A DNA stretch of 30,789 bases from a virus: positions 1 through 30,789 of IMG/VR virus record IMGVR_UViG_3300045743_000462. One strand, 5' to 3'. The translations under genes and the position numbers were made by a program. Shown in pieces: positions 1 through 30,789 of the stretch. The notes under the pieces were generated by a model. The model did not search any database and was not told the origin of the DNA. It saw only the letters and a program-made list of their open reading frames with translations. Position 1 is the first letter of the stretch. Each line of letters starts with the position of its first letter.

Positions 1-1277
1 ATCAAGCCGCCATAGCCCTGGCCGCGCAGGTCGCGCCCGCGATCCTGCATGGCTTGTCCCTTGGCACCGATCTCCAGCGAGCGCTGGTGGTTAGCGAGAC
101 GGCGGTCGGCGTCCGCCGGGCCGTTCAGGTTCAGTTTAAGCTGCTGGGCGCGCTCGGCGGCGCGTTTTAATGCTTGCTCAGTGCGCTCCACCTCGCGCCG
201 CATTGTCTCGCCCTGGCGCGTTGCATCGACCAGCCTGTTTTTGAACTGATCTGCGACCCGTTCGGCGCGTTGCAGGCTCTCTTTGATGCGCGTCACTTCG
301 GCGGCGTTATTGGCCCCGCTGCGCTCGGCCAACTGCAAATTGACGCGCAGCCGATCCGCCACGGTGGTGGTGGCGGTGATGATGTTGCGGTAGCGTTCGG
401 CCTTTTGTTCCAGACCGGCGGTGACGGCGTCGGCGCGCACGATCAGTTCGCGCAGTTTGACCATTTCTGCCGTCGTTGCTGCGGTGGTGGTCTCGGTCAG
501 TAATAATTTCTCGCGCAATTGCGTCGCGCCTGCCGTGCTGGTCCCCAGTTCCAGCCGATACTTTTCCGCCGTTGACTGCAACCCTGCCGTTACGCGGTCG
601 GTGCGCTTGATCGCCGCCTCCAGCGCCTGGATTTCGCCCTTGGCCCCCCGGCCATGATTGGTGACGGCCTCAAGGCGCTGGTGCAAGGTCTCGGCCTGGC
701 TGGCGCTCGCTTGCAGCTTATGTTCGGTCTTGCTGATGTTTTGCGACAGATTGCTGCTGATCCGGTCGGCGCGGGCGATGCCTTCGCGCAGTTGCGCCAT
801 GTGTGCGGTGGCCTCGATGGTCGTGTCGTCCGCCGCTTTTAACCGGGTCCGCAGCTTTTGGGCCAAGACCGCACTGGCACCGATCTTTTGTTCGGTCAGC
901 GTCAGGTTCGACTTGAAACCCTCGGTGACCTTATTGGCGACATCGATATTGTCCTTGACCCGTTTGATCTGCACCGCAATGCCGCGCCCGGCATCCTCGG
1001 CCACCCGGATCTTTTGCGCGAACTGTGTCGCCAGACGTGTGCTGGTGTCAAAGTGCTGCTTGACGCGTGCCAGCCCGATATCAAACTGCGCCACCGTCGC
1101 TTGCGCCGTGGTCAGTTCGCCGCGCAGCCGGGTCATGGTTTCCAGCACACCGCGCTGCACCTTGATGTTGGCCATGGTGGTTTGCAACGCATTGGCGGCG
1201 GTGCGGGCGCCGGCCAGATAGTTGACGACGTTGCCCGCCGCGCTGATGACCAGACCGATGTTAAAAATGCGTGACAT
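1..1277 (-). CDS. Tail tape measure protein, N-terminal 425 residues (runs off the window)
   Basis: The reading frame is open from ATG at 1277 to the window edge. AAGGGAAG lies just upstream of the ATG as ribosome-binding site. The protein is almost wholly alpha-helical and coiled-coil, and residues 51-386 are six back-to-back repeats of exactly 56 residues (starts at 51, 107, 163, 219, 275 and 331). A typical repeat begins LRxxIxRADRVTxxL and has a second LRxxLxxAE stretch about 35 residues later. Position after the sheath, tube and gp41-like chaperone genes is where contractile-tail phages place the tape measure, which sets tail length and is threaded through the tube. The membrane-active and C-terminal parts are outside the window. 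The identification rests on order plus coiled-coil repeats, not on a recognised catalytic motif. Confidence 0.85.
   Translation of the reverse strand, partial: MSRIFNIGLVISAAGNVVNYLAGARTAANALQTTMANIKVQRGVLETMTRLRGELTTAQATVAQFDIGLARVKQHFDTSTRLATQFAQKIRVAEDAGRGIAVQIKRVKDNIDVANKVTEGFKSNLTLTEQKIGASAVLAQKLRTRLKAADDTTIEATAHMAQLREGIARADRISSNLSQNISKTEHKLQASASQAETLHQRLEAVTNHGRGAKGEIQALEAAIKRTDRVTAGLQSTAEKYRLELGTSTAGATQLREKLLLTETTTAATTAEMVKLRELIVRADAVTAGLEQKAERYRNIITATTTVADRLRVNLQLAERSGANNAAEVTRIKESLQRAERVADQFKNRLVDATRQGETMRREVERTEQALKRAAERAQQLKLNLNGPADADRRLANHQRSLEIGAKGQAMQDRGRDLRGQGYGGL
120..1127 (-). repeat. Six tandem 168-bp (56-codon) coding repeats in the tape measure gene
   Basis: Translation of the minus strand gives six consecutive 56-residue units without any gap. 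They are conserved at the protein level (LRxxIxRADRVTxGL near the start, KYR about residue 21, LRxxLxxAE about residue 36-43) but have diverged in DNA. Fifty-six is eight heptads, fitting a continuous coiled coil. Confidence 0.85.
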
Positions 1278-1342: not shown

Positions 1343-1501
1343 TTACTGCTGCCGATTGGCTTTTTCCCGCGCATCCAGTATCAGTTGCGCGTCATTGACC
1401 CAATCCCAATATTCAGACCAGCCCATTGCCTGCAAGTTGTCCATCGTCAAACCCCGGTGGATCTGCATCAATGACTGGTCCAGCCGCCGCAACTGCTGTT
1501 G
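1343..1501 (-). CDS. Frameshift extension of the tail assembly chaperone (-2 frame)
   Basis: In the frame offset by -2 (equal to +1) from the gp41-like gene, an open stretch overlaps its 3' end and continues past its stop to TAA at 1343-1345. The 52 residues beginning QQQLRRLDQSL and containing MGWSEYWDWVNDAQ form a helical, Trp-rich tail-chaperone-like segment. There is no good ribosome site for independent translation, although an in-frame ATG exists within it. Phage Mu is known to use an unusual -2 frameshift here. A plausible slip point is ACC-CCA at 1505-1500, where a proline tRNA could re-pair two bases back on CCC, giving a fusion of about 239 residues. The exact site is inferred. Confidence 0.6.
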   Translation of the reverse strand, partial: QQQLRRLDQSLMQIHRGLTMDNLQAMGWSEYWDWVNDAQLILDAREKANRQQ

Positions 1502-2060
1502 GGGTATCCACAACCCGACGAAAATAGCCGCGCAAAGCGAATGAATCGGCGATGGACAGGTCGTCGATATCTTCGATCATGACGCCCGCCATGGCGCCGA
1601 TCAAAAAGCCGTCGCGCGCGCTCGTCAGGTCGGAATAATGCACCGCCCGTTTTTGATCGGCGCGGGTCAGCTCGCGCAGCACCAGTGTATCCAGCGGACC
1701 GCTTGGCGTCGCCAATGGCGCGGACAATGGGTAGCAGGTGCCCGCAGGCACGATCTCAGGCAACGGCGATGCATTGACCGGGTTCATCATCGCAAAGAGT
1801 TCGTTCAGGAGTGCGTCGGAGTCGGCATAGCTGAGATCATCGAGCGCGTTCAGCGGCAGCCCGGTCATGGCATGCAGCATATGATCGTCTTGCAAGGTCG
1901 CATCGTCGGGTGCATGGCGCTCGGCGGCGACACGGTCACGGTGGGTCAGTTGTTTGATTGGCAGTGAGGTGACGGTTTGGGCGCCGTTGCCTGTGTTGGC
2001 AATGAACTTGCCCTTCAACAGGTAGGTTTTCAATAGGCTGTTTTTCAATACATTCGACAT
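1413..2060 (-). CDS. Tail assembly chaperone, Mu gp41-like (zero-frame product)
   Basis: A 215-residue protein starting MSNVLKNSLLK. ATG at 2060 is chosen because AAGGA lies 8 nt upstream; the frame is open further but the added residues look non-coding. The second half, with its ADxDALLNELFAMM and later IEDIDDLSIADSFALRGYF pattern, fits the Mu gp41 / tail-assembly-chaperone family, in which a short acidic helical protein is made together with a frameshifted longer form. Gene order agrees: it follows the tail tube and precedes the tape measure. The zero-frame stop TGA is at 1413-1415. Its role would be to bind the tape measure and recruit tube subunits during tail assembly; it is not kept in the virion in known relatives. 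Confidence 0.75.
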   Translation of the reverse strand: MSNVLKNSLLKTYLLKGKFIANTGNGAQTVTSLPIKQLTHRDRVAAERHAPDDATLQDDHMLHAMTGLPLNALDDLSYADSDALLNELFAMMNPVNASPLPEIVPAGTCYPLSAPLATPSGPLDTLVLRELTRADQKRAVHYSDLTSARDGFLIGAMAGVMIEDIDDLSIADSFALRGYFRRVVDTPTAVAAAGPVIDADPPGFDDGQLAGNGLV

Positions 2061-2122
2061 GCTTTTTTCCTTCAGTTTCGTGGGTTGGTTGGTGGTGTTG
2101 CCGCTACGGTCCTGCAAGCGGG

Positions 2123-2650
2123 CTATTGCCCGTGATTGGCGCGCCAATCGGCCAGAATGTCGTCGCCGTTTAGCTTGAAAATGTTGTTCATGAAATCGAT
2201 TTCGATGATGTCTTCGTCGTCAACAGTCTGTTTGAAATAGAGGACAGAACCCATTGCATTGATTTCCGCCCGCTCGTTGTTCTTGATCGAGCCGCCTGAC
2301 GGCAATTTGGTAAAGAGCACGGTCATGAGCGTGACCAGCTTCTTTTGCGACACCAGGCCGCCGTTGCCGTAGGTATCGATGCTGGAACGCACCTGTATCT
2401 GGACGCCCTTGTAAGGGTTACCGGCTTTGGCCATCACCTTGGGGTAGTAAGACTTGAGTTTCATGGTGAACTCGGCTGGCTGGAAGCCGCCGGTAGGCAG
2501 CTTGATCTGGCTCGCCATGCCCAGCCCTTTGTATTCCGAGGTGATCGCCATGATCTCGGGCACGCCAACTTCTTCGGCCATGCCAACGAGGGACGCGCCA
2601 GCGACATAGATCGAGGCGTTGGTGATTTGTGATACTTCGATGCCTGCCAT
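2123..2650 (-). CDS. Major tail tube protein, P2 FII family
   Basis: A 175-residue protein. The stretches EYKGLGMASQIKLPTGGFQ, GVQIQVRSSI and the C-terminal YFKQTVDDEDIIEIDFMNN followed by NGDD and LADWRANHGQ match the pattern of the P2 FII tail tube protein (about 170 residues), rather than the shorter Mu gpM. AAGGA lies 8 nt upstream of ATG 2650. It polymerises as hexameric rings around the tape measure to form the tube inside the contractile sheath. It starts 9 nt after the sheath gene stops. Confidence 0.88.
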   Translation of the reverse strand: MAGIEVSQITNASIYVAGASLVGMAEEVGVPEIMAITSEYKGLGMASQIKLPTGGFQPAEFTMKLKSYYPKVMAKAGNPYKGVQIQVRSSIDTYGNGGLVSQKKLVTLMTVLFTKLPSGGSIKNNERAEINAMGSVLYFKQTVDDEDIIEIDFMNNIFKLNGDDILADWRANHGQ

Positions 2651-2659
2651 GGGTTTTCC

Positions 2660-3871
2660 TTATTTGCTCTTCAGGAGCACTGCAAATTCGTCGGTCAAAA
2701 TCGAGTCAAACACACCATGCTCAAACGGCGGCGCGGGTGTCAGCGAGTAGGAGAAGCGCAGCCAGCCGTCGGCGATGGCGTCCGGCGGGTTTTTGTTCGG
2801 GTCGAGCCAGCATTTCGCACCCAGCAGTTCTTTGCTGTTGATTTTTTCGTTGATGAATGCGGCGATACTGCCCAAAATCGAATCGACCAGGGCGCCGCTG
2901 ATCGGCACGTCCATAAAAGGAAACGAAAAAAAGCGGATCGCTTCGTCGAATGAATCTTGGAAGCGCGTGCAATTGATGAATGTTTCCAACCCGGAATTAC
3001 CGCTGCCATAACTGGCGTTGCGGTTGCCCCACAATCGCGGCCCGGTGCCAAAACCGGCGAATACGGTCATGATGCCGACGCTGTTGAGTAAATTGACTTC
3101 GCTGTTGGCGTCATCGATCTGCGCGGTTAATGACCGCTCCTGACCTTGCACGCCCTGCAACTCGGTGTTTGATGCGCTGAAACCCACGCCCTTGCTGGCG
3201 TCCTTGGCCGCCATCGCACCGGCGGCAAATTGGGATAGTGGTTGCAACGTGACGCCATTGGCTGCCGGATCAAACGCTTTTTGATGCGGATAGCACAGAA
3301 TTGCGCGGCGCGAACTGGTGAAGAAGTTGATCGTGCCGTTCGGACCGCGTCCGGCCACTGCCTGCGCCGGTGACGTGCCGAAGGGTGCATCGACGATGGC
3401 GACGGCATTAATCCGGTTGGCACGGGCCAGCATCTCTTGCGTAACGCTGGCAACGGACGAAAAGCCAGGGGCGATGATGATTTTCGGGCTAAATCCGAAC
3501 AGGCTGAAACAATCGCCCGCCAACGCCAGCCCGCTGCGCAAGCCCGCGCCGCTTTGACCGCCGATCACTTTGGCGGTCGCGGTGGCATCGGTCCACGCAG
3601 GGTCGCGCACATTGACCACAATGACGATGCCAGCGCCCTGGGCACGGATGACCCGCAGTGCTTGCGGGATGGTGTAGCCGGTCGGTTCGGGCGCGTTGGC
3701 GGGCAGCCATTGTGCGTCGTCGCCCTCCCACAGACACAGGGTCGGCACATTGACGGGGCCATTTGGCGCGGTCCCAACCAACAAAATGACGCCGCTTTTG
3801 GCGGTGGTGATCTTGCGGTTGCCGGAAGTCGATTGCAGTGTTTCGACACCGTGCAAAAAGGTGGCGGTCAT
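2660..3871 (-). CDS. Tail sheath protein, P2 FI family
   Basis: A 403-residue contractile sheath subunit. It opens with HGVETLQSTSGNRKITTAKS, like P2 FI (HGV plus a threonine-rich strand), and has the conserved GPRLWGNRNAS motif near residue 275 and a C-terminal segment with LRFSYSLTPAPPFEHGVF near residue 370, corresponding to the PVPPLE region of P2 FI (396 residues). Its ATG overlaps the stop of the preceding gp38-like gene by 4 nt (ATGA), so the two are translationally coupled. Together with the tube gene it makes the P2-type tail module that is known for the BcepMu group of Mu-like phages. Confidence 0.92.
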   Translation of the reverse strand: MTATFLHGVETLQSTSGNRKITTAKSGVILLVGTAPNGPVNVPTLCLWEGDDAQWLPANAPEPTGYTIPQALRVIRAQGAGIVIVVNVRDPAWTDATATAKVIGGQSGAGLRSGLALAGDCFSLFGFSPKIIIAPGFSSVASVTQEMLARANRINAVAIVDAPFGTSPAQAVAGRGPNGTINFFTSSRRAILCYPHQKAFDPAANGVTLQPLSQFAAGAMAAKDASKGVGFSASNTELQGVQGQERSLTAQIDDANSEVNLLNSVGIMTVFAGFGTGPRLWGNRNASYGSGNSGLETFINCTRFQDSFDEAIRFFSFPFMDVPISGALVDSILGSIAAFINEKINSKELLGAKCWLDPNKNPPDAIADGWLRFSYSLTPAPPFEHGVFDSILTDEFAVLLKSK

Positions 3872-4529: not shown

Positions 4530-5020
4530 CGCCGGTGATCGTGATCGTTGCCGTACAGCGCCAGCAGGCCGCCTTTGCCGCCCATCTTTTTGCGTGGCCC
4601 GCGCATGGCGCTCTTGCTGCCGTCGGCATCTTGCTGTTGCCGCCCATTGGTGGCGGTGCTGCTATCGATGACGTCCAGCGACAAGCTGCAGTCGCGCACG
4701 TGTTCCAGGGCGCGCAGGGCTTCTTTGTACGTCCGCACGATGGTCGGCGGCAGATCGTCCTTGCCATCAGGCCGCCGTGCATACAACACGTGGCGGGCAA
4801 TCGCACCGGCCCATTGGTCCAGATCGCTGCAACTTTGGACCAGCGGCAAGACATAACGATTGCGCAGATAACTGTTCATCGTCGAGGTGGTATCGGCCAG
4901 CACTTTTGTCACCAGTGCTTCGTCGATCACCGCGCCGTTGTCGTCGTCGGTCAGCAGTGCCAGCTTGTCGTTTGGCACGTACTGCGTTAGCCCTTCGCGG
5001 GTCAGATAGGCGGCGATCAT
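4526..5020 (-). CDS. DUF1320 protein, Mu gp36-like head completion protein
   Basis: A 164-residue protein beginning MIAAYLTREGLTQYVPNDKL. ATG 5020 is preferred over an upstream in-frame codon because it overlaps the capsid gene stop by 4 nt (ATGA), as is usual in this operon. The N-terminal helical half with DTTSTMNSYLRNRYVLPL and WAGAIARHVLYARRP fits DUF1320, the gp36-like proteins located between capsid and tail genes. The C-terminal tail is Gln/Lys/Gly-rich and low complexity. Confidence 0.8.
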   Translation of the reverse strand: MIAAYLTREGLTQYVPNDKLALLTDDDNGAVIDEALVTKVLADTTSTMNSYLRNRYVLPLVQSCSDLDQWAGAIARHVLYARRPDGKDDLPPTIVRTYKEALRALEHVRDCSLSLDVIDSSTATNGRQQQDADGSKSAMRGPRKKMGGKGGLLALYGNDHDHRR

Positions 5021-6033
5021 TGTGGCTTGACGCGCAGTTCGGCCAGGGCTTCGGGATAGGTGCACACTGGCAGCGGATTGGTCTCTGCCACGATCTCGCT
5101 GCCTTTGCCGTGCTTCATTTTTTCGATCGAGGCGTAAAAATCCATGCCGGGCATATTGACGGCCCAGTCATAATTGCCGGGGGCCAGATGTTCGACCATG
5201 ACGCCCACGCCGCCGACCGGGTAGATGTGGCATGCATCGTCATCGACAAACTTGCGGCCCCGGATCGCCCCATTGACTTCGCGGAACGAGACGCCAGACA
5301 AGGAAAAATCCTGGCGCGCATCGGCGGCCAAGGCGCTTTGCACGCCCGCCCAGTTTTTATACAGTTCGGCGACCGAACGATGACGGCGCATGTTGTCAAA
5401 CCAGGTTTTGCCGCAAATTGCCGCAAAACCGGTAACCGACTGCCCGGATAAGGCGGCTTCGCCGTTACGCACGGCGTTGAGGATGACATCGGCCACTTCA
5501 AGTGTCTTGTCCGAAAAGTCGATCGTCTTGAGATATTTTTGCATTTTGAATTTATCGAAGAAATCCAGAATGACCTTGCCGTCCTTATTCAGCAACTGCC
5601 CTTTGAGTGCGGAGATGCGATGATATTCACGCATCGTCATCAAGATGTTTTTCAGTCTCTGAAACTCATTGTTGACCGCCGTTGTCATAGGATCGCCGGA
5701 GAGACCCAATGCGGTCATTACATTTGCAGCGATAAGAGTAAGGTTTTGAATGTCGCCGGGGCGGACATAGCCCTTAACGGGCAAATGCAGTGTTCTGAGT
5801 GTTTGACGGCTCTCGCCATCCTTTGGGATCAGATGGGCCTCATCATCACGCGAGGTATCGTCAATAAAAAAGACCTGGCTGTTGGCGACCTGAATCACGA
5901 CGTCCGTGGTGGTGGTGCGTATGACCTCAAAAATATTCAATCTTTCGGTCAGGTTGGTGGTTTGCGGCAGCTTGTTGATGGCAATCGTACATTCTGCGGA
6001 TGTGTAGCCATCGGGGCTGGTGATCATTGTCAT
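5017..6033 (-). CDS. Major capsid protein, lambda gpE family
   Basis: A 338-residue capsid subunit. ATG 6033, preceded by GAGAG at 7 nt, is chosen rather than a TTG codon 30 nt upstream. The sequence TVEVIRTTTTDVV-like start (FEVIRTTTTDVVIQ), a helical middle, ICGKTWFDNMRRH near residue 210, then ARQDFSLSGVSFREV and the G-rich IYPVGGVGVMVEHLAPGNY followed by ETNPLPVCTYPEAL near the end are typical of the phage major capsid protein E family. The lambda-D-like decoration gene immediately upstream supports it. It forms the icosahedral shell. Confidence 0.88.
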   Translation of the reverse strand: MTMITSPDGYTSAECTIAINKLPQTTNLTERLNIFEVIRTTTTDVVIQVANSQVFFIDDTSRDDEAHLIPKDGESRQTLRTLHLPVKGYVRPGDIQNLTLIAANVMTALGLSGDPMTTAVNNEFQRLKNILMTMREYHRISALKGQLLNKDGKVILDFFDKFKMQKYLKTIDFSDKTLEVADVILNAVRNGEAALSGQSVTGFAAICGKTWFDNMRRHRSVAELYKNWAGVQSALAADARQDFSLSGVSFREVNGAIRGRKFVDDDACHIYPVGGVGVMVEHLAPGNYDWAVNMPGMDFYASIEKMKHGKGSEIVAETNPLPVCTYPEALAELRVKPQ

Positions 6034-6094
6034 GTCAATCTCTCGGGTGTTTGTTTTTGTCAATTGGGCCGATGTACGGCAACGCGATGCAGGA

Positions 6095-6466
6095 TCAATT
6101 CAATGGGCTTTGCACCAGCACATAATTTAATTTCAGTGCGGCGATCGCTGTCGCCTTTTGCGCATCGGTAATCGCTGCGGGCCAGACCAGCCCCTCGGCC
6201 ACGAACAGGCCCAGACGCGGTACCACCAGCCCGGTCTGGTCGGCGGCGCTGGCGTCCACATTGGCAATGCAGACGGCGGCGGCTTTGGCGCTATCGTCGG
6301 CGGCAGCCGGGGCCAAGGGCACATATTTGGCCCCCAGCTTGGCGATCACTTGGCCGATGACAAAGACGCCGCCGCTTAGAGTGACGTTCTCTTTGCTCAT
6401 TGCGCCAAAGTCTTGTGCCAGGACATCGGATAGCCGAACCGGGCGTTGAAAAAAGGTGGTGGTCAT
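6095..6466 (-). CDS. Head decoration protein, lambda gpD family
   Basis: A 123-residue protein. RPVRLSDVLAQDFGAMSKENV followed by LSGGVFVIGQVIAKL is the characteristic N-terminal pattern of the lambda-D-like decoration proteins, which bind as trimers on the expanded capsid and stabilise it. Its place between the protease/scaffold and the capsid gene is the lambda and Mu-like order. The C-terminal part (AAIAALKLNYVLVQ) also fits the family. Confidence 0.88.
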   Translation of the reverse strand: MTTTFFQRPVRLSDVLAQDFGAMSKENVTLSGGVFVIGQVIAKLGAKYVPLAPAAADDSAKAAAVCIANVDASAADQTGLVVPRLGLFVAEGLVWPAAITDAQKATAIAALKLNYVLVQSPLN

Positions 6467-6499
6467 GCTGAATCCTTGGGTAATTAAAATGGATTGTGC

Positions 6500-7651
6500 T
6501 TAGGTTTTTTTGCAGCGTTGCTCGGCATCGGCCACCAGCGACGATTTGCCCGCGTTCTGCGTTTGGGCCACGCGGGTGGCGGTCGCTTGCTCGGCGAACA
6601 GATGGGTGCCGGTTTGCGGGGTGGCCGCCAGCTTTTCTTTGTAGACGATGTAGCGGCTTTTCTGCACGCCGCCTTCGGCGTATTGCAGCGCGGCCCCGGT
6701 TTGCCAGTCCTTGTCGGTTGCCGGGTCTTGCTGGGCCAGGTGGTCCAGTTGCGCCACCTGAAAATCCTTGTCGGCTGGCAGCAGCTTGCCTGCGGTGATC
6801 AGCCCTTCGCAATAGGCCAGATGGCTGGCATGGCTGGCATGGCTGGCATCCTTTTGCGCTTTCACGCTGGCGGCGGTCAGGGTTGCGTTGGCTGCTTCCA
6901 GTTGCGCATTTTTTGTCTGCATTGCTGCAATCTCTTCGGGGGTCATCGTTTGCTCGCTAAAAATTGGGTTAATAATCGGGTTGGTAATGGCGTCGTCTTC
7001 TGGCACTTGCCGCAGTTCTCTGGCCGATTCTTCAATCTGGTCAATCTTCCAGCTCGGTAATAGGTTGTCGGCTTCATCCAGTCCTTTTTCGGCAATCATG
7101 TTGTCGCGCAGGTTACGCATCCAGCCTGCAAGCATTTCAAATGGGCGGGCCACCATCCACCCGGCGATGTCGGCATATTCCAGGCTGGCGGCAGCGGTGT
7201 CGCCTTCGGCGAAGGTAAAGCCGTCCATGCCCTTGACGACGGGTGGCGTTGCGCCTTGCAGGCCAAGGTGGCGAAGGTGCAATTTGCCGGGCGTCGGGTT
7301 GTGCGGGTTGGCGCGGTCGTACAGGGCGACGGAGACGTCCAGCCAGGACAGGTTTTTGATTTCGTTGGCGACCGGCTCGCTCATCATCACGTCGCCATAC
7401 AGTTTGCGGCCATCGCGTATCACGGCGGTGACGCCGCCATAGGATGGCGCATCGTTGCTGGGGTGGCCTTTGACCAACGGGGCAAAATGTTTGGTGCGGT
7501 TATAGGTTTGTGCGATCTCGTCGAGGTCGGCTTCGTTGTAGGTGCGGCGCTGACCGGCTCCATCGACATGCGTGCCGGTGCAGAAAATCTGCTTGCGCAT
7601 TGTCACGTACTGTGGCGGAGCGGAGGTTGGTGATGTCGATGGAGTAGTCAT
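6500..7651 (-). CDS. Prohead protease and scaffold, Mu I/Z-like
   Basis: A protein of about 383 residues. The N-terminal half (RTYNEADLDEIAQTYN, HFAPLVKGHP, LSWLDVSVAL, LHLRHLGLQGATPPVVKG) is the Mu gene I-type phage protease; the C-terminal part after about residue 235 is coiled-coil, Ala/Gln/Lys-rich and scaffold-like, as for the nested Z product of Mu. An internal in-frame ATG at 6946 (MTPEEIAAMQ) could give the free scaffold, 6500-6946. The start is uncertain: the frame opens at ATG 7675, but the candidate late promoter predicts transcription from about 7651, so ATG 7651 or ATG 7600 (MRKQIF) are likelier. None has a clear Shine-Dalgarno sequence. Confidence 0.85.
   Translation of the reverse strand: MTTPSTSPTSAPPQYVTMRKQIFCTGTHVDGAGQRRTYNEADLDEIAQTYNRTKHFAPLVKGHPSNDAPSYGGVTAVIRDGRKLYGDVMMSEPVANEIKNLSWLDVSVALYDRANPHNPTPGKLHLRHLGLQGATPPVVKGMDGFTFAEGDTAAASLEYADIAGWMVARPFEMLAGWMRNLRDNMIAEKGLDEADNLLPSWKIDQIEESARELRQVPEDDAITNPIINPIFSEQTMTPEEIAAMQTKNAQLEAANATLTAASVKAQKDASHASHASHLAYCEGLITAGKLLPADKDFQVAQLDHLAQQDPATDKDWQTGAALQYAEGGVQKSRYIVYKEKLAATPQTGTHLFAEQATATRVAQTQNAGKSSLVADAEQRCKKT
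6820..6849. repeat. Three 9-bp direct repeats (ATGGCTGGC) inside the protease/scaffold gene
   Basis: ATGGCTGGC occurs three times in a row and encodes, on the minus strand, the string SHASHASH in the linker or scaffold portion. It is a simple in-frame tandem repeat that probably varies in copy number. Confidence 0.8.
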
Positions 7652-7657
7652 GCAGCC

Positions 7658-7701
7658 ATGATGACGGCGCGCCATCGATACGTCATTTGACGCGCGTCAA
7701 A
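7658..7701 (-). promoter_or_regulatory. Candidate late promoter before the protease gene (equivalent of Mu PI)
   Basis: A perfect 16-bp palindrome TTTGACGCGCGTCAAA lies at 7686-7701. Exactly 22 bp downstream on the minus strand is CATCAT (7663-7658), a -10-like hexamer. The same palindrome, spacing and hexamer occur before the spanin gene at 14332-14375. There is no -35 box, as expected for an activator-dependent promoter. Mu has late promoter PI at this same position upstream of gene I, activated by a Mor/C family dimer. Confidence 0.65.
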
Positions 7702-7904
7702 ATCTGCCTGCCGGGAACCGGTATGCTGGCAAAGCGGGCTCTACTTCGGCGCAGCGGCCAATGCGGCGCGCAAATCACTAGTGCGCGGTAGCGTCACCAC
7801 CAGCGGCGCGCAGCAAGGGGGCGCAAACCCTTTATAAAGGGGGTCTGGCGCGCTGTGGCACCGATTTCACACCATCGCTATTTTAAACGCCTTATAGCGC
7901 GTTT
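7702..7904. other. Non-coding stretch between the G-like and protease genes
   Basis: No convincing gene is seen. It holds a perfect 14-bp palindrome CCCTTTATAAAGGG at 7828-7841 and a hairpin with 6-bp arms AAACGC (7885-7890) and GCGTTT (7899-7904) directly after the G-like gene stop codon. The hairpin may be a weak terminator for the upstream block before transcription restarts at the late promoter. Confidence 0.5.
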
Positions 7905-8387
7905 TTAGCCGATGACGGCTTTTTGCAGGAACGCGTAGCACACGGTTAACACGCCGTGCTCGGCCTCGGGGCTGAGGTTGCCGTTGGCGTCCATCGGCAA
8001 GTAGGGTCTGGCCTGGATGGTGACGCTATGGTTTTTGCCTGCGGTGCCGCCGAGCTGCTGGATGGCGGCATACGGGTGGGCGTCGCCTGCCACGCCAATG
8101 GCCGCATAGGCCGGGCCGCTGTCGGCGATGACGCTGCGCGCCAGCGCGCCGCTCACTTGCAGGATCTTGCCGGGCCAGCTGCCTTTTTTGGTCCGTTCCG
8201 CGATTGTGCGCGCTGACAGTGACGCCCAGCGCGGTTGGCCCTGGGCGCGGAAATTGTCCTCGGTCTGGGCCAGTAGTTCCGCCGCGATGGCGGGCATGAG
8301 TTTGTCGATGCGTCCGGTGCGGGCGATGGCATCGAGGGCGGTGTGTAGCTCCTGGCTGTGCAGGGTAAATTCAATCGGTGCGGTCAT
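7905..8387 (-). CDS. Virion morphogenesis protein, Mu gpG / P2 gpS-like
   Basis: A 160-residue protein starting MTAPIEFTLHSQELHTALDA. ATG 8387 overlaps the stop of the F-like gene by 4 nt; a longer open frame upstream is only a shadow. The core RWASLSARTIAERTKKG followed by ILQVSGALARSV and HPYAAIQQLGGTAGKNHSV, then ARPYLPM, is the hallmark of the phage virion morphogenesis (tail completion) family: a Trp-x-x-Leu segment, an L-x-x-SG-x-L motif and a final RP(Y/F)L. It takes part in joining head and tail. Confidence 0.88.
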   Translation of the reverse strand: MTAPIEFTLHSQELHTALDAIARTGRIDKLMPAIAAELLAQTEDNFRAQGQPRWASLSARTIAERTKKGSWPGKILQVSGALARSVIADSGPAYAAIGVAGDAHPYAAIQQLGGTAGKNHSVTIQARPYLPMDANGNLSPEAEHGVLTVCYAFLQKAVIG

Positions 8388-27932: not shown

Positions 27933-28985
27933 ATGCGCCGCTTGCCTATTTTCTTGCTGCTCGATGTCTCGGAATCGATGATCGGCGACAACCTGCGTCA
28001 ATTGCAGCAAGGGATTGCCTCCCTTGTGGGCAAATTGCGCACCGACCCGCATGCGCTGGAAACGGTGTATTTATCGGTGATCGCCTTTGCCGGCAAGGTA
28101 CGCACACTTGCGCCCCTGACCGAATTGGCAATGTTCTATCCGCCACACCTGCCGGTCGGGGCCGGTACTTCACTGGGCGCGGCGCTCGATCATCTGATGA
28201 CCGACATTGAGCGCACCGTGGTCAAAAACACCGCCGAACGCAAGGGTGACTGGCGGCCGATTGTGTATTTGATGACCGATGGCAAGCCGACCGATGACAC
28301 TGAGGCCGCCTTTGCACGCTGGCAACGCGATTTCGCCAGCCGCGTGACGCTGGTGGCGATTGGCGTCGGCCAGCATGCCGCGCTCGACACCTTGCGCCAG
28401 CTCAGTGCGCACGTACTGCATCTGCAAGCCGACAACGAACAGGATTTCCGCCGTTTCGTCGATTGGGTCAGCATGTCGATTTCGGCCCAAAGCCGCAGCG
28501 TCGCCAGCACCACCAGCGGCATGGTCAATCTGGCGAAACTCGACAACGGCATCATGCAGCAAGTGAGCGCCATTGGACGGGCGGCCCATGTTGATGCCGA
28601 TTTTGTCATCATCAGCGCGCGCTGCCAGAGCAACCGTCTGCCGTACCTGATCAAGTACGAACGGGTGGCCGAGACGCTGGAGCGCAGCGGCTTTCGCCTG
28701 CAACTGGAACGCTATCATTTGACCGGCGTGTTCGCGCTGGAACAGGATTATTATGGCATGTCGGACGAACGCGGCTTGGCTGCGAGCGTCAATTCCGACA
28801 CCCTGATCGGCTCTCCCGGCTGCCCGCATTGCGGCAACCCGATTGGGTTTGCCATTTGCCGTTGCGGTCAGGTGATGTGCCTGCGCGGGCCGGGACATGC
28901 GACTTGTCCGGCCTGTCTGAAAGAAGGCGAATTCGGCATCTCGGAGGCCAGCGATGGCTTCGAGGTCAACCGCTCGCGCGGCTAA
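27933..28985 (+). CDS. TerY-like vWA protein with C-terminal zinc ribbon (TerY-C domain)
   Basis: A 350-residue protein with AGGA 6 nt before the ATG. The vWA domain (1-200) has DVSESM (D11, S13, S15), T79 in GAGTSLGAAL and D116 in MTDGKPTDD. Residues about 210-285 form a second, unknown region, and about 297-331 is a cysteine-rich metal site: CPHCGNPIGFAICRCGQ, then CLRGPGHATCPAC, the TerY-C type. The first 120 residues are clearly paralogous to the preceding protein, so the pair arose by duplication with gain of the zinc domain. It is likely to take part in the same kinase/phosphatase module. Confidence 0.9.
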   Translation: MRRLPIFLLLDVSESMIGDNLRQLQQGIASLVGKLRTDPHALETVYLSVIAFAGKVRTLAPLTELAMFYPPHLPVGAGTSLGAALDHLMTDIERTVVKNTAERKGDWRPIVYLMTDGKPTDDTEAAFARWQRDFASRVTLVAIGVGQHAALDTLRQLSAHVLHLQADNEQDFRRFVDWVSMSISAQSRSVASTTSGMVNLAKLDNGIMQQVSAIGRAAHVDADFVIISARCQSNRLPYLIKYERVAETLERSGFRLQLERYHLTGVFALEQDYYGMSDERGLAASVNSDTLIGSPGCPHCGNPIGFAICRCGQVMCLRGPGHATCPACLKEGEFGISEASDGFEVNRSRG

Positions 28986-29036
28986 AAAGACCGGGCATGG
29001 CGATGCACACATTCACGCATTGATTGGAACAATCGT

Positions 29037-30608
29037 ATGAACCAGGATTTCTCAAATCAGGTGCAGGCCATGCTGCTGCTGCGGCAACCGGCGCAGGACC
29101 CGGCCCTGATCGAGGCGTTTCTCGCCAGCGCGCGCGGCGCAAGCTGCATGACCGCGTTTGAAACACTGCTCACCCATGAACTGAACGAATTTCAGCATTT
29201 CCAAATAGCGCAAGCGGCCAAAGCGGCCAAAGCCGCGAACGTCAGCCCACCCGCCGCGCCCATGCCCGCGTCCGAAACCATGCCACCGAGCGAACCTGCC
29301 ATGCCTACACCAGAACGCCCCGCCCTCTTGTTCCGCCTGCAAAACGGCCGTGTCGGCGAGCCGTATGCGCAGCCCTTGATCCCGATCCCGAGCGATGCGC
29401 CGCCGGTAGTGTTGCTCGATTTGACTCTACCACCCGAATTGGGCCTCCTGGCCAATCTGGCCAACGCGCATGTGGCAGGTTGCCCGGCGCTGGCGGGCGA
29501 ATTCGATTTGGCGCTGCGTTACCATTTTGCCGCCGATGCACCGGACCAAGAACGGCAAGCCAGCGTCAAGTTATTGATCAATCCCGATCCAAAATCGCTC
29601 TGGAAAGACTTGCCCTCGGATCGCAACGCCCCGTTCTGGCGCGCAGACGCCGCCGCGCAATTGGTGCAAGGGTCCGAACTGTCGATCATCGCCGCCAGCA
29701 AACGCGGGCGCTCGCATGCGCACGTGGGCAGCTTTCGCGATGACGATTTCGCGCTGCTGCATCTGCCTGACAGCGGCTGGTATTGCGCGGTGGTGGCCGA
29801 TGGCGCGGGCAGCGCCAAATACGCACGGCGCGGCGCCAGCATCGTCTGCCAGCAAGCCATGCACTACCTGGAACAAAGTCTGAACGGCCCGCAAGGCGAG
29901 GCAGTGGCGCAGGCGGCGGCCAACTTCCACGCCGCGCGCGCCTTGCACTTGCAGGAGTCTGCGCCAGAGAAACCAGCACAAGCGCAATCGCCAGCGCCGG
30001 AGCCCGCGCCCTTGCAGCAAGCGCGCCAGCATTTGCATCACCAGCTGTATCAAACCGTGGGCTACGCCGCCTACCATGCAGTAAAAGCGATTGTTGGCGA
30101 AAGCGCAGCGCAACCGGACTTGCAGGCCAGTTATCAGGATTTTTCCACCACGGCCCTGATTACGGCTTGCCGCCGCTTCCCGTTTGGCGTTTTGTGCGCC
30201 GCTTATTGGGTTGGCGACGGTGCGCTGGGCATCTATAGCAAATCTGGCGGTATCCAATTGTTGGGCGAAGCCGATGGCGGAGAATATTCCGGGCAGACGC
30301 GCTTTCTCAATCAAGCCGAAGTCACTCAGGACGCCTTGCTGCGGCGCACCCGCTTCGCGCTGGTGGACGATTTCACGGCATTGATGCTGATGACCGATGG
30401 CGTCTCCGACCCTAAATTCGAGACCGAGGCCAAGCTGGCGCAAGCGGCTGGCTGGGACAGCCTGTGGCAGGAACTGGAACAGGCCACCGGTTTGCCGCTG
30501 GTGCAACCAGGCGTCGAACAACGCCTGTTGACGTGGCTTGATTTCTGGTCCACCGGCAATCACGATGACCGCACACTGGCGATTATTTTACCGGGGGCCG
30601 CCGCATGA
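29037..30608 (+). CDS. PP2C-family Ser/Thr phosphatase of the TerY locus
   Basis: A 523-residue protein. The phosphatase domain begins at about residue 215: HAHVGSFRDDDFALLHLPDS, then VVADGAGSAKYARRGAS (metal-binding D about 254), AAYWVGDGALGIYS, LMLMTDGVSDPKFE (D about 450) and GNHDDRTLAIILP near the end (D about 510); all the PP2C metal aspartates are visible. The N-terminal 200 residues hold an Ala/Lys repeat, a Pro-rich linker and an unrecognised domain. An Ala/Gln/Pro-rich insertion lies near 300-330. It would remove phosphate from targets of the adjacent kinase. Its stop overlaps the kinase start by 4 nt. Confidence 0.9.
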   Translation: MNQDFSNQVQAMLLLRQPAQDPALIEAFLASARGASCMTAFETLLTHELNEFQHFQIAQAAKAAKAANVSPPAAPMPASETMPPSEPAMPTPERPALLFRLQNGRVGEPYAQPLIPIPSDAPPVVLLDLTLPPELGLLANLANAHVAGCPALAGEFDLALRYHFAADAPDQERQASVKLLINPDPKSLWKDLPSDRNAPFWRADAAAQLVQGSELSIIAASKRGRSHAHVGSFRDDDFALLHLPDSGWYCAVVADGAGSAKYARRGASIVCQQAMHYLEQSLNGPQGEAVAQAAANFHAARALHLQESAPEKPAQAQSPAPEPAPLQQARQHLHHQLYQTVGYAAYHAVKAIVGESAAQPDLQASYQDFSTTALITACRRFPFGVLCAAYWVGDGALGIYSKSGGIQLLGEADGGEYSGQTRFLNQAEVTQDALLRRTRFALVDDFTALMLMTDGVSDPKFETEAKLAQAAGWDSLWQELEQATGLPLVQPGVEQRLLTWLDFWSTGNHDDRTLAIILPGAAA

Positions 30609-30789
30609 ATACCAATCACAGCACAAGCCACAACACAACAGCTGCCCCGGATGCCGACATCATCCGCCTGACCGCCGCCGATGGTTCGGTGGTGGAATAC
30701 GTCAACCAGATCAAGGCCCAGGGCGGCATGAAGGATGTCTATTTCTCGCCGGGCAAGGATTATGTGGTGGCTTTTTACCGTGGCCCGGC
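30605..30789 (+). CDS. Protein kinase of the TerY-P triad, N-terminal 61 residues (runs off the window)
   Basis: ATG 30605 overlaps the phosphatase stop (ATGA), so translation is coupled. After a polar, Thr/Asn-rich start, IKAQGGMKDVYFSPGKDYVV followed by AFYRGP looks like a kinase glycine-rich loop and the next strands. The position directly after vWA and PP2C genes is that of the kinase in TerY-P triads. Only the N-terminal lobe edge is in view, so catalytic residues cannot be checked. Confidence 0.7.
   Translation, partial: MNTNHSTSHNTTAAPDADIIRLTAADGSVVEYVNQIKAQGGMKDVYFSPGKDYVVAFYRGP

Follow-up and report, generated by a model that had tools for sequence, protein, structure and literature searches.

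Tail module and tape measure gene

The window, i.e., the whole IMG/VR record of 30789 bases that was analysed, carries at one end a group of tail genes, all located on the minus strand:

1..1277, minus strand: tape measure protein (TMP) gene, 5' part, 425 codons with the ATG at 1277, running off the window
1413..2147, minus strand: tail assembly chaperone E-like gene (Phage_TAC_7)
2123..2650, minus strand: tail tube protein gene, FII-like (Phage_tube)
2660..3871, minus strand: tail sheath protein gene (Phage_sheath_1)

The contig ends within the TMP ORF at 1277..3 (minus strand). Another contig, L002, shares window bases 1-127 exactly (127 nt) and extends the TMP frame by 791 codons from residue 385, resulting in a full TMP of 1175 aa. 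The join is based on this 127-nt overlap and on the intact relative L172 (IMGVR_UViG_3300045974_000989), and we consider it sound because the TMP of L172 is encoded by a single uninterrupted ORF of equal size, which aligns across the join. In the L002 continuation, the PF10145 (PhageMin_Tail) core was detected with 56 bits (E = 6e-15), exceeding the gathering cut-off of 33.2, and many PHROG tape-measure families match there as well. Considering window and L002 together, the genes are arranged in the order sheath, tube, chaperone E, TMP, U, D, V, W, J, which is that of the P2 type. The presence of the Phage_sheath_1 sheath gene shows that the tail is contractile, and the head genes of the window phage are Mu-like. 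The assignment as a TMP in an earlier note on this DNA is borne out by the conserved core and the gene order, both shared with TMPs of the Mu gp42 and P2 T type (PF10145); as judged from sequence, the gene is the TMP of a Mu-headed phage with a P2-like contractile tail.

Three further observations concern the surroundings of the TMP gene. At 1345-1445 (minus strand), an overlapping frame past the E-like chaperone gene reads MDNLQAMGWSEYWDWVNDAQLILDAREK... and resembles GpE, as in the P2 E+E' frameshift product. The sheath protein (2660-3871, minus strand) comprises 403 aa and is thereby ~70 residues shorter than most of its relatives (about 475 aa); its alignment to the proteins of L003, L004, and L006 requires a gap so large that an inserted domain seems to be absent, and the short form also occurs in L010-L012. 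The region 27933-30787 (plus strand) encodes a TerY_C/VWA protein, a PP2C phosphatase, and another ORF running off the end. It resembles a TerY-type phosphorylation cassette and is perhaps cargo or host flank beside the phage genes.

Five 56-residue units and a terminal coil

The earlier note had placed six exact 56-residue repeats at residues 51-386 of the minus-strand ORF, which do correspond to window positions 1127..120. The 5' part of the TMP gene is divided as follows:

1128..1277, minus strand: N-terminal segment, residues 1-50, ahead of the repeats, 48% identity with L172
960..1127, minus strand: repeat unit 1, residues 51-106, unit 1 of L172 being located at the same place and its nearest match (48%)
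792..959, minus strand: repeat unit 2, residues 107-162
624..791, minus strand: repeat unit 3, residues 163-218
456..623, minus strand: repeat unit 4, residues 219-274, L172 counterpart shorter by 12 residues
288..455, minus strand: repeat unit 5, residues 275-330, nearest unit is unit 4 (41% identity)
120..287, minus strand: terminal coil, residues 331-386 (the former "unit 6"), 80% identical in L172, partly unit-like
3..119, minus strand: linker, residues 387-425, ahead of the conserved PhageMin_Tail core in L002

The TMP matches itself best at a shift of 56 residues (z = 11.4, composition shuffles). Since self-matches at shifts of seven and its multiples arise in any coiled coil, heptad-preserving shuffles were used in addition, in which residues are permuted only within heptad positions. 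Here, shift 56 retains z = 7.5 and shifts 112, 168, and 224 are high as well, while shifts 7, 14, 28, 42, 49, and 63 score below zero. The in-register score of the five units amounts to z = 13 in the window TMP and z = 9.9 in L172. These values refute the reading that there is no true repeat and that a long, compositionally biased coiled coil merely appears periodic, a reading with virtually no chance of being correct even though units 1-5 share low pairwise identity (16-41% at the protein and 36-51% at the DNA level) and a coiled coil should give some score at every shift that is a multiple of 7.

By a leave-one-out profile, units 2-5 were each located at their predicted start. Unit 1 is weaker yet supported, its pairs with units 2-5 having z = 2.2-3.2 and its second half z = 4.7. 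An HMM built from units 1-5 returned five units at 51-330 and none in register at 331. Residues 331-386 have a leave-one-out score of -39, their second half scores at chance (z = 0.24), and no match of this segment to unit 4 or 5 was observed; only its first ~20-28 residues fit the unit. Allowing an insertion of 14 residues behind column 19 tentatively improves the fit (41.8 vs 16.6 ungapped, p about 0.03). The 56-residue repeat is real, and of the six exact units the five in register at residues 51-330 (280 residues) stand; they are followed by an irregular, strongly conserved terminal coil. The possibility of another, seventh unit ahead of residue 51 was rejected, as residues 1-50 match the N-terminus of L172.

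Fifty-six residues are eight heptads, as the earlier note had it, and the hydrophobicity period of the array is exactly 3.5 residues (power 30.5 vs 0.1 at 3.667). Inside the unit an older half repeat of 35 and 21 residues was observed, with columns 1-20 resembling columns 36-55 (z = 5.2; z = 3.4 in L172), and a Gly/Thr/Asn-rich stretch recurs at columns 45-50. Residues 51-386 are free of Trp, Phe is not conserved, and the unit has no conserved aromatic residue. Pfam and PHROG matches to the coil itself are of the generic coiled-coil kind and below cut-off, and were not used. At the DNA level, Tandem Repeats Finder detected no repeat in the TMP repeat region, which fits an old divergence of the units. 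Exact DNA identity between any two units extends over no more than 10 bp in the window and 15 bp in L172, which makes easy unequal crossing-over unlikely at present.

Occurrence of the array and comparison with L172

Relatives were sampled by scans with TMP and sheath alignments, which yielded 202 TMPs with a start, 135 of them distinct. With P0001 as lone query no relative was found in phages or genome contigs, and with the sheath as lone query none in viral contigs; L172 was reached only with the alignments. Further scans with the repeat region and with the core revealed no third TMP bearing the repeat. Among the about 135 distinct relatives, the array is restricted to the window TMP and L172. 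The count of units in relatives, suggested in the earlier note, thus gives five in the window and five in L172, including one of 44 residues, and all other relatives read are devoid of the array.

The part of the TMP ahead of the core comprises 444 residues in the window and, counted from the ATG, about 433 in L172, and in other relatives mostly about 60-160 residues, in some 210-228, and in one case 262. TMPs of the P2-tailed relatives share with the window TMP an N-terminal short coil, and the short coil of repeat-free relatives aligns to window residues from about 356 onward. Due to this alignment, the five units resemble an insert flanked by conserved ends. Compared with the TMP of Mu (690 aa) and a median of 823 aa in the relatives, the window TMP has 1175 aa, with five extra 56-residue units relative to Mu. 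As a separate observation, the N-terminal 262 residues of the TMPs of L130, L132, and L133 display a weak 36-residue periodicity (z about 5; 2 x 18), which represents another type of coil than the 56-residue array.

L172, the closest relative, shares the five-unit array followed by the terminal coil, and its TMP has nearly the same length (about 1171 aa compared to 1175 aa) despite an overall identity of about 48%. The conservation is uneven: the terminal coil is 80% identical, unit 1 48%, and the middle units 18-36%. All units of the window have 56 residues, whereas those of L172 have 56, 56, 56, 44, and 56. The constant unit length postulated in the earlier note is not supported in homologues, a homologue with a non-integral repeat length having been named there beforehand as contrary evidence. 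A one-to-one pairing of the five units of both phages was rejected (AU p = 0.015, from 56 columns with low branch support), which suggests turnover among the middle units. One may speculate, although we regard it as unlikely, that 56-residue modules are duplicated, lost, and homogenised as a whole at a fixed TMP length, as seen with 1171-1175 aa in the two phages. If true, such swapping of modules would imply that tail length is under selection, to which the phages respond by exchanging units.

Proposed role and stepwise change of tape measure length

As a whole, the observations are best explained by a TMP with five tandem eight-heptad units that form a head-proximal rod and lengthen the ruler, to which we assign a probability of about 0.78. 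A coil segment that already contained the 35/21-residue half repeat would have been tandemly duplicated into the array, which sits between a conserved N-terminal stretch and the conserved terminal coil. The repeat segment is predicted to be a nearly continuous helix: AF2 with two sequences gave helices at 4-207 and 213-383 (pLDDT 85). The solved full-length TMP of diffocin is a coiled-coil trimer whose N-terminus is located at the collar (PMC11329794). By analogy, the array most likely forms an extended, probably trimeric, helical rod in the lumen of the head-proximal tail tube.

The length of the TMP sets tail length in general, as concluded from deletions in TP901-1, where the removal of 347 aa shortened the tail from 118 to 65 nm (PMC5099701); this computes to about 1.5 Å per TMP residue. 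At this rise, the five units would lengthen the ruler by about 42 nm and the whole 1175-aa TMP would correspond to about 180 nm, but 1.5 Å per residue may fail over the whole chain because TMPs can fold or be processed.

TMPs are known from the literature to act later in DNA entry, and the array might instead be a folded domain, built of helical hairpins or a membrane-active bundle, that is released into the host at infection and has no ruler function. In the single-sequence model, helix breaks fall at unit columns 45-50 and thus coincide with the Gly/Thr/Asn-rich stretch. In the two-sequence model, however, a single short break (208-212) lies inside the array and the helix is otherwise continuous, and an array that is polar with a clean period of 3.5 is not membrane-spanning. 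Such a released domain is therefore considered improbable compared to the rod-like ruler.

Even less probable is the reading, based on the earlier note, that each unit is matched to two tube rings and tail length is set in two-ring steps. All five units of the window TMP have exactly 56 residues, and 56 x 1.5 Å gives 84 Å, close to two rings of 39-40 Å; at the 39 Å pitch taken from phiCD508, the unit equals about 2.15 rings. In case of Mu, the closest measured phage for calibrating the rings, the tail consists of 30 rings, each rising by about 35 Å (PMC11915804), and its TMP of 690 aa thus provides 23 residues per ring, or 1.52 Å per residue. Applying the 35 Å pitch taken from Mu, the unit equals 2.4 rings. 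Furthermore, L172 contains a 44-residue unit and yet a full TMP, and TMPs of other relatives repeat units of 43, 44, 52, 67, or 87 residues. Duplication in heptad register accounts for the fixed value of 56 better than a match to rings does, and these comparisons suggest that the length of a unit is independent of the tube ring.

Growth of TMPs by tandem units is supported, and a tandem array of 56-residue units is a real but mostly expected way to lengthen a ruler protein. For siphophage TMPs, tandem units of 11 or 11-11-18 residues were described and gain or loss of units was proposed (Belcaid 2011, PMC3271669), i.e., this idea was already published in 2011; TMP repeat deletions were tested in TP901-1 (PMC5099701), and a 40-residue repeat of lactococcal phage p2 is cited there as well. 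Common to these TMPs and that of the window are tandem units, a proposed gain and loss, and a residue number tied to tail length. In contrast to the hendecad-like siphophage units with conserved Trp/Phe markers, the window unit is 56 residues long, strictly heptad-based (3.5), and free of Trp; a period of 11 or 18 with such markers was not observed in the array, which, unlike the TMPs of Belcaid 2011, belongs to a contractile-tail phage. The diffocin TMP is likewise a long coiled coil of a contractile system, but it was solved as a tube-spanning trimer and the portion of PMC11329794 at hand reports no 56-residue array. A heptad-based TMP array of 56-residue units was not found in the open-licence literature. 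With the array, the set of tape measures known to bear repeats is extended by that of a contractile-tail phage whose unit is long and heptad-based.

The gain or loss of whole units envisaged in the earlier note is observed in relatives, whose TMPs vary in length by units of 87 residues; an easy change of the 56-residue array is at odds with the low DNA identity of its units (at most 51%). The TMPs of the close relatives L029, L036, and L037 comprise 896, 983, and 1070 aa; the steps between them correspond exactly to one or two copies of a C-terminal 87-residue unit, which is located directly before the conserved LGIHSPSR motif. In case of L037 (TMP at L037:10824-14036), the region of 87-residue units covers 605-865 aa. 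As far as the sequences indicate, whole-unit stepwise change hence occurs in relatives, but with an 87-residue unit situated elsewhere in the TMP. In complete E. coli genomes, the TMP gene occurs with spans of 3213, 2952, and 2691 bases, the sizes predicted for three, two, and one copies, respectively; in 582 of 5426 genomes, 80% or more of the query is covered at one place. Judged by gene span, E. coli prophage TMPs therefore appear to hold one, two, or three 87-residue copies. These prophages represent a natural series, in which a fixed tail length per added unit is directly testable. Also close to the C-terminus, the TMP of L191 (ORF 4695-8321, 1208 aa) contains about five near-identical, Pro/Ala-rich units of 52 residues at residues 874-1126.
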